Shown here: piece by piece, positions 9,542 to 20,921 of the stretch
Layout: each line of letters begins with the position of its first letter
Position numbering within the stretch: position 1 is the first letter of the stretch
Virus record (IMG/VR): IMGVR_UViG_3300006805_000196
Coordinates: 1 to 21,097 of that record
Direction: 5' to 3' (one strand)
DNA from: a virus
DNA length: 21,097 nucleotides
Notes under the pieces: generated by a model
What the model saw: only the letters and a program-made list of their open reading frames with translations
The model's database searches: none
What the model was told of the DNA's origin: nothing
Program-made: the position numbers and the translations under genes

Positions 9542-10093
9542 TCACGCCGCCGCGACGATGGCATCGCGCTTGACCCACGTCCTTCCGAGCGCTCCAAGGT
9601 CGATCTGCACCCTATCCGCCCCGTTCGTCCTGACCACTTCGGCCGTGACGCCGTCCAGTATTTCGTTCAGCTTGACGACCAGCACCTTCGCCCCATTTGG
9701 GAAATCTCGGTCAAGGCTTTCGCCGTGGTGTTTGCGGGCCGCGCGGGTGTCGTCGAACTTCATGTCGATTTCGTCGTCGAGAATGGCCGCGACGAGGTCG
9801 CTTTGAACCGGGATTGGCCATCCCTGGCATTCGATGAAGCTTTCCACGCCCTCGCAGGCGCGCACCTTGCCGAAATGCTTCTCCGCGTTCATGCCGACGA
9901 ACAGATAGCGCAGCAGCAGCGGGCGCTCGATTGTCCTGTAAGTGTTGGTGCGCTTGTTCCATATCTCGACACGAGAGCGGGGCAGGTACACGTCGAAGCC
10001 GGCCGCGCGGATGTTGGCGCTCGCCTTCTCCTCGCACTTGATGTTGGTGCGGACGACGTACCAGGCCTTCGACGTGTCGATGGATAGCTTCAT
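9542..10093 (-). CDS. NusG-like transcription antitermination protein
   Basis: A 183-aa protein. Residues about 9-110 form an NGN domain: the AWYVVRTNIKCEEKASANI start is the NusG hallmark, followed by GFDVYLPRSR and the RPLLLRYLFVGM strand. Residues about 130-176 resemble a KOW segment (PNGAKVLVV ... AEVVRTNGADRVQIDLGALG). NusG family members bind RNA polymerase and alter pausing and termination. Start ATG 10093 overlaps the stop of the preceding gene (ATGA). It lies just upstream of the regulator and head modules, so a role in late-gene readthrough is reasonable, but unproven. It is a phage paralogue, not the host nusG, because secE and ribosomal genes are absent here. Confidence 0.8.
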   Translation of the reverse strand: MKLSIDTSKAWYVVRTNIKCEEKASANIRAAGFDVYLPRSRVEIWNKRTNTYRTIERPLLLRYLFVGMNAEKHFGKVRACEGVESFIECQGWPIPVQSDLVAAILDDEIDMKFDDTRAARKHHGESLDRDFPNGAKVLVVKLNEILDGVTAEVVRTNGADRVQIDLGALGRTWVKRDAIVAAA

Positions 10094-10506
10094 TCGGCTT
10101 CTCCACGCAGATTGGCGAGGTCTTGTTCCCACCAACTCCGTTGACGTATTTCGCTCACAGCGCGATTCCGAGTTCTGATCATCGACACTTTGTGCCGCAT
10201 GGATACCGACCGCAGCGCATCCACCTCGTACCGGAAAATTTCGGCGGCATTTTCAATGCGGTTTAGCCGCTCTTGTTCGATTTCCGCCGTTGTCCTGAAG
10301 CCTGACAGGCGCTTGACCAATTCTGCGATGCGCGACGCCCTACTCGGCTCCGCACCGGAGGCAAAGGCAACCCCCCCATAACCGCCTGCCATAGGCAGGG
10401 ACATCCCTGACGAAACAAGCGGCTCGACAACGCTTTTTGCGGCGGCTGGTCCGGCTACTGCTGCCCCACCCATAAGCCCGAAGAATTTGCGTCGAGACGC
10501 TTTCAT
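10090..10506 (-). CDS. Protein with Tat-like N-terminal signal, 138 aa
   Basis: The N-terminus reads MKASRRKFFGLMGGAAVAG then PAAA-KS: a twin-arginine motif (SRRKFF), a hydrophobic stretch and an A-x-A-type cleavage site, as in Tat signal peptides. The remainder (about 55-138) is charged and helical with regularly spaced Arg and Glu (AEIEQERLNRIENAAEIFRYEVD) and may form a coiled coil. No enzyme motif is seen. The gene starts immediately after the stop of the 150-aa gene and overlaps the NusG-like gene by ATGA. Whether it is exported, or the motif is a chance basic start, cannot be told. Confidence 0.7.
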   Translation of the reverse strand: MKASRRKFFGLMGGAAVAGPAAAKSVVEPLVSSGMSLPMAGGYGGVAFASGAEPSRASRIAELVKRLSGFRTTAEIEQERLNRIENAAEIFRYEVDALRSVSMRHKVSMIRTRNRAVSEIRQRSWWEQDLANLRGEAE

Positions 10507-18675: not shown

Positions 18676-18704
18676 AATGTGCATCCTATGCACGTTCTTG
18701 TCAA
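18676..18704 (-). promoter_or_regulatory. Promoter of the Cro-like gene with embedded operator
   Basis: On the minus strand TTGACA (18704-18699), 17 nt, then CACATT (18681-18676). The spacer and -10 box contain the perfect palindrome GTGCAT-CCT-ATGCAC (18679-18693). A related half-conserved site, GTGCAT-GGG-GTGCCG, lies at 18712-18726. Binding at the palindrome would block RNA polymerase. Confidence 0.7.
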
Positions 18705-18761
18705 GCGCGTTGTGCATGGGGTGCCGTGGATTTTTTTTGCACCTGCACAGAAACTCTCTCC

Positions 18762-19097
18762 ATGAAAAAGAGAGTGGCCCACAAACCCGCGCTTCGGCGG
18801 ACCTATCTCAGGGAATGGCGCGAGTTCCGGAACCTGACGCAGGAGCAGGCCGCCGAACGTCTCGGAATCGACCGTTCGCATTTGAGCAAGGTTGAACGCC
18901 GCCAGGTTCCCTATAGCCAAGGACTGATCGAAGCCGCCGCCGAGGCCTACGCTTGCGAACCGACCGACATCCTCGGCGTGAACCCACTTGTCGCAGGCGA
19001 GGTTGTCGACCTGACCAAGATCCTCCGCGATGCCGACCCCGTGACGCGGGCCGAAGTGCTGGGCTACGTGAAAGGCCGTCTGAAGCTGGTTTCCTGA
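18762..19097 (+). CDS. CI-like phage repressor, single HTH domain, 111 aa
   Basis: The N-terminal half is an HTH_3/Xre-type domain (about residues 12-70: LREWREFRNLTQEQAAERLGI then DRSHLSKVERRQVPYSQGLI). The C-terminal part is a short helical segment (LTKILRDADPVTRAEVLGYVKG), probably for dimerisation. There is no LexA/CI-type peptidase domain, so SOS-driven self-cleavage is not expected. ATG 18762 is used; a GTG at 18726 in frame lies inside the operator region. No ribosome site precedes ATG (AACTCTCTCC), so leaderless or weak initiation is likely. Divergence from the Cro-like gene marks this as the lysis-lysogeny switch. Confidence 0.75.
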   Translation: MKKRVAHKPALRRTYLREWREFRNLTQEQAAERLGIDRSHLSKVERRQVPYSQGLIEAAAEAYACEPTDILGVNPLVAGEVVDLTKILRDADPVTRAEVLGYVKGRLKLVS

Positions 19098-19120
19098 TCG
19101 TCAGGCAATAAGGTGTCTAA

Positions 19121-19594
19121 ATGACGGTCCTGTGGAGCCATCAAGACAACGCCGGTCCTGCCAGCGCCAAGCATCCGTGAAGCCGATATACCCGACAGGT
19201 CGGTTTGTTATCCGGGCCGCTACCCGGCTGTGGGCGACATCCTCCCGCTGGTCAGGCGGTGCAAACGGAACGCTGTCACTTACAAGGTGTCGAGAACGGC
19301 CCTTCGGCCGGGATCCACATTTGGTCCTGTCGTTATCCCGAGGATTGCAAGTCCTTCGTCGGGCGGGCCGTCACCCCCGTCCAGCTTCGTCCGATTCGTG
19401 ATGGAACCGGCAACATGGGTGATTTCATCGACCGAATGATCGGTGACGGCGGGCCAAACCACGGGAAAGACCGTCGTCTCCAGCGCTTGAAACGCAATCT
19501 CTTGCCGGGAACCTCCGAGCAGACGCAAGAAATCACGATTTTCGCGCCGCGAGACGCAATATCCTGTTGCAAGGCCGGAAGTGTTACTGTATAA
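19121..19594 (+). pseudogene. Possible broken gene downstream of the repressor
   Basis: The stretch 19098-19620 has no clean gene. ATG 19121 has AAGG 7 nt upstream and opens MTVLWSHQDNAGPASAKHP, ending in TGA at 19178. The same frame then stays open from 19181 to TAA 19592-19594. By codon-position GC (counted by eye), the +1 frame fits coding better for about 19182-19286 (74% GC3 against about 52%), while the original frame fits better from 19287 on (about 70%). This pattern suggests a gene with two compensating shifts or a decayed gene. Encoded pieces include GIHIWSCRYPEDCKSFVG and GNMGDFIDRMIGDG. No family is recognised. A minus-strand frame here fits less well. Confidence 0.35.
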
Positions 19595-19620
19595 CATTTC
19601 CTGTTCTATACCCGTCTCGC

Positions 19621-19657
19621 GCCCCGGCAGGATCATTCCTCCGGGGCCTTTCTTTTT
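19621..19657 (+). terminator. Rho-independent terminator after the repressor unit
   Basis: GCCCCGG-C-AGGA-TCAT-TCCT-CCGGGGC forms an 11-bp stem with one bulge and a 4-nt loop, followed by CTTTCTTTTT. It ends the plus-strand transcript of the repressor and the region after it, and separates it from the next unit that starts near 19738. Confidence 0.85.
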
Positions 19658-19686
19658 GCACATCGCCGCCGCGCCGTCAAGAAAAT

Positions 19687-19737
19687 GTGCAATGGGTGCA
19701 CTTTTCTGTTGACGTGCTCGTGCATATGGTGCACATT
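19687..19737 (+). promoter_or_regulatory. Promoter and two operators for the DUF7666-like unit
   Basis: TTGACG (19709-19714), 17 nt, then CACATT (19732-19737). Operator A, GTGCAA-TGG-GTGCAC (19687-19701), lies just upstream of the -35 box. Operator B, GTGCAT-ATG-GTGCAC (19720-19734), overlaps the spacer and -10 box. The transcript would start near 19745, ahead of the AGGAG ribosome site of the gene at 19764. The layout matches the promoter at 18676-18704. Confidence 0.7.
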
Positions 19738-19763
19738 GTCTCCCATCAACACAGGAGACGGAC

Positions 19764-20450
19764 ATGGCGCGCGCCAAGAAAGCAACGGAAACGACACAGA
19801 CGATTCGGGCCATCAAGGGCTTCGACGCCGATATGAAGTGTCGCGGATTTCAGTTCGAGGTCGGCAAGACCTACGATCACAAGGGCGAGGTGGAATGCTG
19901 TTCGTCCGGCTTCCACGCCTGTGACGGTTCCCCGATGGACGTGTGGGGCTACTACGGACCTGTCGATGATGGCGTCAGGCTGTCGCGCTATGCGGCTGTC
20001 TCAATGGCGGGCGCTATCAGCCGTGAAGGACAGAATGACAGCAAACTCGCAAGCGGTCGCATTACCATCGAGGCGGAAATCACGCTGCGGCAGTTCGTCA
20101 AGAAAGCCGTTGATTGGCTGATTGACGCGACGAAAGGCAAAGCAGAAAGCGGCAACTACGCGCGGATCGGTTCCAGCGGCAACTCCGCGCGGATCGGTTC
20201 CAGCGGCAACTCCGCGCGGATCGGTTCCAGCGGCAACTCCGCGCAGATCGTGGCTGACGGTAAGAACAGCGTCGTCGCGTCGGCCGGTGCCGGAACGACC
20301 GTTTCAGGCGCGGTTGGCCTTTGGATTTCCATTGCCGAGTTCAGGGGCGGCAAATGCGTCGGCTTCGCTACTGGCTGCATCGGTCAGGACGGCCTTGAAG
20401 CAGGCGTCCCGTACATCGCGCGGGGCGGGAAGTTGGTTCCCGCCTCCTAA
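19764..20450 (+). CDS. DUF7666-like phage protein with Gly-Asn-Ser repeat region, 228 aa
   Basis: ATG 19764 has AGGAG 8 nt upstream. Residues about 14-120 match the DUF7666-type domain: IRAIKGFDADMKCRGFQFEVG, KTYDHKGEVECC, SSGFHACDGSPMDVWGYYGP, then SKLASGRITIEAEITLRQF. Residues 130-161 hold tandem nine-residue units of the form GN(S/Y)ARIGSS, followed by a Val/Ala/Gly-rich, possibly beta-solenoid stretch and a C-terminal GKCVGFATGCIG domain. Proteins of this kind are common in phages; their function is not established. Operators shared with the switch region suggest control by its regulators. Confidence 0.75.
   Translation: MARAKKATETTQTIRAIKGFDADMKCRGFQFEVGKTYDHKGEVECCSSGFHACDGSPMDVWGYYGPVDDGVRLSRYAAVSMAGAISREGQNDSKLASGRITIEAEITLRQFVKKAVDWLIDATKGKAESGNYARIGSSGNSARIGSSGNSARIGSSGNSAQIVADGKNSVVASAGAGTTVSGAVGLWISIAEFRGGKCVGFATGCIGQDGLEAGVPYIARGGKLVPAS
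20151..20250 (+). repeat. 27-bp tandem repeat inside the DUF7666-like gene
   Basis: Units of 27 bp start at 20151, 20178, 20205 and 20232 (the last partial and diverged). Units 2 and 3 are identical and unit 1 differs by one base. Each codes for GN(S/Y)ARIGSS, so the repeat stays in frame and can vary in copy number without breaking the gene. Confidence 0.85.
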
Positions 20451-20477
20451 GCCGTCACTCCTGAACAGGAGAGCAAC

Positions 20478-20921
20478 ATGAGCCGTGCATTAACCTATGA
20501 CGAAGTGAAGGCCATGCATCCGTGCGACAACAGTTTCCGTCGCGTGTCGAAACTGCTCGGCGGCAAGGACGGATGGAACGGCAACCAAATCAGCGCGGCG
20601 GATGCTCGTGCCGCTGGGTGCTCTTTCGATGACATCGTGTGGATCGCCTCGGAAGTCGCCAGGAAGGACGCTGACGTAGAGCGCCGGCTGCGCCTGTGGA
20701 TGGCGGACTGCGCCGCCCGCGTCCTGCACATCTACGAGAAGACAGGAACAAGCGAGGCCCCGCGCAACGCTATCATTGCAGCGCGCCAGTTTGCGCGCGG
20801 TGAGATTGACAACGCCGCGAGTGACGCCGCGAGGGCCGCCGCGAGGGCCGCCGCGAGGGCCGCCGCGAGGGACGCCGCCCGCGCCGACTTCAACCGCCGC
20901 GTCGAGGAACTGTTCGCATGA
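20478..20921 (+). CDS. Phage protein with Ala/Arg repeat tail, 147 aa
   Basis: ATG 20478 has GGAG 7 nt upstream, 27 nt after the DUF7666-like stop, so both are likely one transcript. The N-terminal 100 residues are mixed alpha/beta (LTYDEVKAMHPCDNSFRRV, then DIVWIASEVARKDADVERRL and LWMADCAARVLHIYEK). The C-terminal part is a helix of DAAR/AAAR units (116-135) ending ADFNRRVEELFA. The 'WM.DCAARVL...AIIAARQFARGEI' pattern followed by Ala-rich helix resembles phage proteins annotated as putative immunity proteins; that label is not proven. Confidence 0.65.
   Translation: MSRALTYDEVKAMHPCDNSFRRVSKLLGGKDGWNGNQISAADARAAGCSFDDIVWIASEVARKDADVERRLRLWMADCAARVLHIYEKTGTSEAPRNAIIAARQFARGEIDNAASDAARAAARAAARAAARDAARADFNRRVEELFA
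20823..20882 (+). repeat. 12-bp tandem repeat coding for (A/D)AAR
   Basis: Five 12-bp units from 20823: the central three are identical GCC-GCC-GCG-AGG, the first and last are GAC variants, the last with changed third and fourth codons. They encode a regular four-residue helix repeat at the end of the 147-aa protein. Confidence 0.8.

Follow-up and report, generated by a model that had tools for sequence, protein, structure and literature searches.

The DNA analyzed here, a 21,097-bp virus record that we call the window, appears to come from a temperate podovirus and to hold its immunity region, which has a lambda-type layout and in which the promoters PR and PL would both be under operators of a CI/Cro pair. 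We put the probability of this reading, which is drawn from sequence comparison, at about 0.88; a weak -10 element and the lack of a cleavable domain in the CI of the window speak against it. Control of both promoters by one switch regulator is strongly supported by the comparisons below. The terminase, portal and capsid genes are nearest those of temperate-type podoviruses (EBPR podovirus 2, Sulfitobacter phage phiGT1 and Bradyrhizobium phage ppBeUSDA76-2). Promoter P1 reads leftward into a Cro-like gene and then into lytic genes; a helix-turn-helix (HTH) gene is divergent from the Cro-like gene and is followed by a terminator and then by promoter P2, in repressor orientation. Since this gene order and orientation are those of PR-cro, cI and PL in lambda, P1 was named PR and P2 was named PL. 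Two genes of the PL operon are visible in the window, and the contig ends after the second of them. Coordinates are collected in Table 1. Neither Rfam families nor tRNA genes were found by scanning the window.

Table 1. Features of the putative immunity region, with positions in the window
Feature	Position	Strand	Basis and remarks
Cro-like HTH gene, 64 aa	18474..18668	-	Pfam HTH_31, 27.7 bits, over cut-off
P1/PR promoter	18676..18704	-	-35 TTGACA 18704-18699, -10 CACATT 18681-18676; from sequence and geometry in relatives
OR1 GTGCATCCTATGCAC	18679..18693	.	exact 15-bp site; overlaps PR spacer and -10
OR2	18712..18726	.	half-conserved, 2 mismatches; 33 bp from OR1
HTH gene, 111 aa, putative CI-type repressor	18762..19097	+	Pfam HTH_31, 1.9e-12
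Predicted intrinsic terminator of cI transcript, ahead of PL	19621..19657	+	11-pair stem, then CCTTTCTTTTT; MFE -22.1, z -3.9
OL2 GTGCAATGGGTGCAC	19687..19701	.	exact 15-bp site; 33 bp from OL1
P2/PL promoter	19709..19737	+	-35 TTGACG 19709-19714, -10 CACATT 19732-19737; predicted start A19745
OL1 GTGCATATGGTGCAC	19720..19734	.	exact 15-bp site; overlaps PL spacer and -10
Hairpin GTCTCC 19738-19743 / GGAGAC 19754-19759	19738..19759	+	straddles predicted PL start; folding and arm-swap test
DUF7666 protein, first PL gene	19764..20450	+	PF24703, 4.4e-31, 107.7 bits, cut-off 27
Imm5-like protein, 147 aa, Ala/Arg-rich, second PL gene	20478..20921	+	PF21805, 34.8 bits, cut-off 25

The two promoters lie on opposite strands and have TTGAC-N6-GTGCA-N5-TGCAC-ATTG in common. 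Read on the minus strand from 18704 to 18675, P1 is TTGACA AGAAC GTGCATAGGATGCAC ATTG, while P2, read on the plus strand from 19709 to 19738, is TTGACG TGCTC GTGCATATGGTGCAC ATTG, and the spacer to CACATT is 17 nt at both. The original prediction had described this likeness as TTGAC(A/G)-N5-GTGCAT-N3-(A/G)TGCAC-ATTG with CACATT as the -10, and we found it exactly so, together with the two further 15-bp sites it had placed at 18712-18726 (half conserved) and 19687-19701. Its judgment that chance similarity is unlikely agrees with the statistics: the full TTGAC module occurs twice in the window and not at all in 1000 shuffled windows, and GTGCA-N5-TGCAC occurs three times against 0.03 per dinucleotide shuffle. 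Three features go beyond what had been described. The second site is exactly 33 bp upstream of the first, start to start, in both modules; the likeness of P1 and P2 extends past the -10 (CTCYCAT); and a hairpin at PL contains the Shine-Dalgarno of the DUF7666 gene in its 3' arm. The kept half of OR2 adjoins the -35, as it does in other short-CI relatives. The -10 CACATT is weak, with three of six consensus positions, and a sigma-70 scan called no promoter at P1 or P2.

Scans of viral contigs with the regulator proteins recovered a sister contig only. Relatives were collected with a DNA-only operator pattern, so that the presence of sites in them is by construction, whereas their flanking genes, second sites and absence of sites elsewhere are not. 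The pattern matched 41 stretches of viral contigs; a CI-like gene adjoins in 22 of these, and 19 of the 22 have a divergent Cro-like gene too. The remaining stretches, nearly all without a second site, are probably chance matches. When the pattern was tightened to require two sites, it matched 24 viral and 16 genome stretches; Nitrobacter winogradskyi, Sphingomonas and Sphingopyxis are among the genome matches. In the 30 independent PL modules counted after removal of near-duplicates, PL follows cI on its strand at a distance of 22-2425 bp, and paired sites are mostly 33-35 bp apart. Full modules on both sides, as in the window, are present in L007, L009, L161 and L164. DUF7666 belongs to the PL operon in L007 as well. 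L161 and L164, which were matched later, share both the PL hairpin and the cro ATG geometry described below.

Two checks proposed with the original prediction, a comparison with related phages and a motif scan of phage and host genomes, came out in its favor. Some 30 independent phages and prophages, mostly of Alphaproteobacteria where a host is named, conserve the module next to a CI/Cro pair, and the scanned host genomes show no excess of the motif. Each of 16 phage records (15-57 kb) has two to four exact sites, all in the immunity region, and the reversed control pattern has none in these records. Site counts in four bacterial genomes that harbor a prophage (4-4.8 Mb) do not rise above the control level outside that prophage. 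When the module was made stricter by requiring AT behind the site, 0/399 and 2/397 genomes of two orders contained it (2/796), and one of the two matches is a known Nitrobacter prophage. A pair of 15-bp palindromes, spaced 33-35 bp around a -35, may serve as a simple searchable signature for the switches of little-studied alphaproteobacterial temperate phages and prophages, one which distinguishes PR from PL.

The original prediction also suggested that the switch regulator silences the genes at 19764-20921 and treated them as accessory genes. The coupling is supported by the approximately 30 phages and by operators and recognition helices that are swapped together; the accessory framing is not. 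From the position and orientation of P2 and from the downstream genes of relatives, whose PL operons carry ERF, YqaJ, SSB, RecT, Rad52 and integrase, the DUF7666 and Imm5-like genes most plausibly open an early left operon like that of lambda. One could also imagine that the second module arose by a recent tandem-type duplication and that 19764-20921 is a separately acquired cassette with a copied promoter. The 67-bp promoter stretches of P1 and P2 are 63% identical (42/67), and DUF7666 is mobile: at least 333 viral contigs carry it, in most cases away from the GTGCA operator, and so do 3/385 genomes. However, P1 and P2 agree at 23/25 of the -35 and operator positions and at 19/42 elsewhere, so their likeness is concentrated at functional positions. 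Twin modules recur in divergent phages with varied downstream genes, mostly for recombination and integrase, which suggests that PL is old and that its cargo changes. In addition, PL-equivalent operators stand at the same place without DUF7666 (e.g. L006, L009, L021 and L027). We consider a copied promoter very improbable and retain the early left operon.

A Pfam search did not find a Peptidase_S24 domain in the 111-aa protein. By sequence it is a CI-type repressor, and because of the missing domain it is filed under lambda-like layout and not as a lambda-family repressor. Long CI homologues at the same place have HTH and Peptidase_S24 domains (shown for L027, L030 and L011). According to the proposed mechanism, the 111-aa CI and the 64-aa Cro-like protein would read the same GTGCA-N5-TGCAC operators, possibly with cooperativity. 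Two sites 33 bp apart would act around the -35 of PR, the promoter of cro and of the lytic genes that are read leftward, and two more around the -35 of PL, which serves the DUF7666 and Imm5-like genes. In the lysogen, CI at these sites would keep PR and PL off, and upon induction or infection both would fire, presumably as early promoters.

Common reading of one operator by CI and Cro predicts that recognition helices match within an operator group and differ between groups. This pattern was found: [DE]RS..SK goes with GTGCA, S[ST][VI]SQ with TTCAGTC, and other helices with other operators. From one heteroimmune phage to another, the operators at PR and PL are exchanged along with both recognition helices. 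L103 carries TTCGCA-N3-TGCGAA once at cro and twice at PL ahead of DUF7666, and its PL sites show the same geometry (34 bp apart with TTGACG between). L128, L134, L138 and L075 each repeat an operator of their own in the cro-cI gap and upstream of DUF7666 or its operon. The DUF7666 of L075 is 85% identical to that of the window over the best segment, and the TTCAGTC operator of this phage is common to Rhizobium phage RHph_I1_23 and Sinorhizobium phage PBC5. Among heteroimmune loci, a de novo paired-operator scan recovered L103 only; the other operators were identified by their repeats. CI and Cro probably both read the shared operator and both exert control, as far as helix and operator sequences can tell. 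If Cro alone read the sites, the DUF7666 unit would be a lytic-phase target; both promoters overlap sites and Cro helices are more uniform than those of CI, as such a scheme would have it. Yet the CI helices share [DE]RS with Cro and change together with them between groups, and the operators are centered on the CI gene in every phage, which makes Cro-only reading highly unlikely. Recognition helices may predict superinfection immunity groups.

The layout is a new operator group of an already known kind. Lambda likewise has divergent cI and cro genes, one set of operators at PR and another at PL, which follows cI on the same strand, and a PL operon of recombination genes and integrase such as those seen in relatives of the window. 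Sphingomonas-type prophages (L027, L011, L030, L053, L067 and L070), which have a long CI, also resemble lambda in having three OR sites, spaced 33/35 bp, and two OL sites; short-CI phages keep only half of the middle OR site. Unlike lambda, the group of the window has GTGCA-N5-TGCAC operators 33-35 bp apart with the -35 between them, and the window itself combines a short CI without Peptidase_S24, a probably leaderless cro, a hairpin straddling the PL start and DUF7666 as first PL gene. The repressor arrangement of Rhizobium phage 16-3 differs from that of the window. This phage of an alphaproteobacterium has two OL and two OR sites as here (oL1, oL2, oR1 and oR2, cited in PMC12429752), with a different operator sequence. 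The immB region of N15, phiKO2 and PY54 also has sets of OR and OL sites, but there OL is upstream of repA and the operators are others (PMC4488713).

With TTGAC as -35 and a 17-nt spacer, the predicted start of transcription is some 9 nt beyond the proximal operator. In 26 of the 30 PL modules, an A is at this position or within one base of it. At PR, the predicted start coincides with the A of the cro ATG, which suggests that the cro mRNA is probably leaderless. The cro ATG is 9-11 nt after the operator in nine independent PR modules, with no ribosome site upstream. A leaderless cro mRNA has been shown experimentally in PY54 (PMC4488713).

The 5' arm of the PL hairpin in the window is upstream of the predicted start. 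RNA containing this left arm folds over the Shine-Dalgarno with an MFE of -8.8 kcal, compared with 0 for RNA from 19745. Most PLs have an inverted repeat after the operator, with a right arm that contains or adjoins the Shine-Dalgarno and a left arm mostly before the predicted start. When arms were swapped over the 30 phages, own arms gave -11.6 kcal versus -8.2 +/- 0.4 kcal for swapped arms (0/20,000 permutations). With only those left-arm bases kept that precede the start, the values were -7.6 versus -6.0 +/- 0.3 (0/20,000), and the signal stays with bases 0-6 after the operator alone (10/20,000). Controls with the first bases of PL's own RNA, with the operator and with PR were not significant. 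These paired arms could simply form an ordinary stabilizing or regulatory stem at the 5' end of the PL mRNA, with the start 8-10 nt further upstream than predicted; the arms are real, and the poor -10 means that the start is not fixable from sequence alone. We find this unlikely: promoter geometry demands a start about 9 nt after the operator, where the A is so frequent at PL, and the same geometry falls on the cro ATG at PR. Moreover, 164 of 238 hairpin pairs involve a base that precedes the predicted start, and bases 0-6 suffice for the signal.

A start inside the inverted repeat suggests another role for the hairpin. PL's own transcript would miss the left arm and expose the Shine-Dalgarno, while RNA reading in from cI would fold over the Shine-Dalgarno of the first gene, leaving PL genes untranslated in the lysogen despite read-through. 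Such an RNA-level lock, acting in several immunity groups on top of the repressor, is a tentative proposal to which we give slightly less than even odds. Over 27 phages the Shine-Dalgarno was unpaired at 0.21 in read-through RNA and 0.38 in PL RNA (p 0.015), compared with 0.43 and 0.47 for control gene starts; this modest overall change in exposure weighs against the lock. In the window a terminator already stands between cI and PL, and read-through may be small. The hairpin is also unclear at three of the 30 PLs (L017, L042 and L059), and among heteroimmune PL leaders it is present in six of nine, without a clear one in L138, L154 and L155. In L033, TTTTT comes after the hairpin, which would work as a terminator there.

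A comparable device is known from T4. RNA from an upstream promoter hides the ribosome site of I-TevI, whose own late promoter starts too late for the stem to form (PMC2988022). The PL hairpin resembles those of T4 I-TevI, e and soc (PMC2988022) in that the Shine-Dalgarno is paired in upstream-initiated RNA, at PL according to folding. In T4 a promoter inside the hairpin makes RNA with a free ribosome site; at PL, a start inside the hairpin is predicted from promoter geometry. The T4 hairpins serve the timing of late genes in a lytic phage, whereas lysogenic silence is proposed for PL. We found no description of a start-straddling hairpin at PL in the open-access literature, and the pairing of this hairpin with the Shine-Dalgarno of its own phage is the new part of the system. 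It offers a testable way in which phages may stop cI read-through from waking PL genes where cI adjoins PL. If true, two things would keep PL silent in the lysogen: the repressor itself and the folded form of the transcript from its own gene.

DUF7666 was considered as a fixed partner of the GTGCA operator and rejected as such, since other DUF7666 phages are without GTGCA sites. Several of these have an operator of their own at PR and PL. A divergent HTH pair was found upstream of DUF7666 in only 9/75 loci, so PL is one context among others for this domain and not the rule. This domain, which is widespread in phages and has no known function, stands first or nearly first after PL in several immunity groups and is thereby placed among early genes. 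The N-terminal domain gave a confident structure model. Compared with the PDB, the model had no meaningful match (best E 0.9; a PARP14 fragment had 1.1 with probability 0.23), and it matched only other viral DUF7666 and giant-virus proteins. No mention of DUF7666 was found in the open-access literature. A nine-residue repeat of the SSGNSARIG type is present four times in the DUF7666 of the window (20147-20240), more than 15 times in L075 (4380-4876) and about 14 times in L007.

Other arrangements were also noted during this work. Clostridial matches (L047-L060) were rejected as members of this phage switch; what they resemble is an autoregulated gene for an HTH-nucleotidyltransferase protein, unrelated to the switch but under a similar operator. 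They have two GTGCA sites 32-33 bp apart around TTGACA ahead of an HTH gene, and in most the HTH is fused to a minimal nucleotidyltransferase (GSYAKGNAGxSSDVDLL). L020 (1576-5929) and others carry at least 12 near-identical GTGCAATGATTGCAC-type sites, most of them 14 nt after TTGACA and directly followed by C-ATG-ACG-ACG, which looks like a group of scattered genes that share one operator and are apparently leaderless. Six tandem GTGCAAAAWTTGCAC-like palindromes occur in L109 (6132-6268). In the window, a protein encoded on the minus strand at 9542-10135, upstream of structural genes, matches phage transcription antiterminator families (phrog_6386), and the inverted repeat GGAAGTGTTACTGTATAACATTTCC with 10-bp arms is present at 19577-19601, between cI and the cI terminator.
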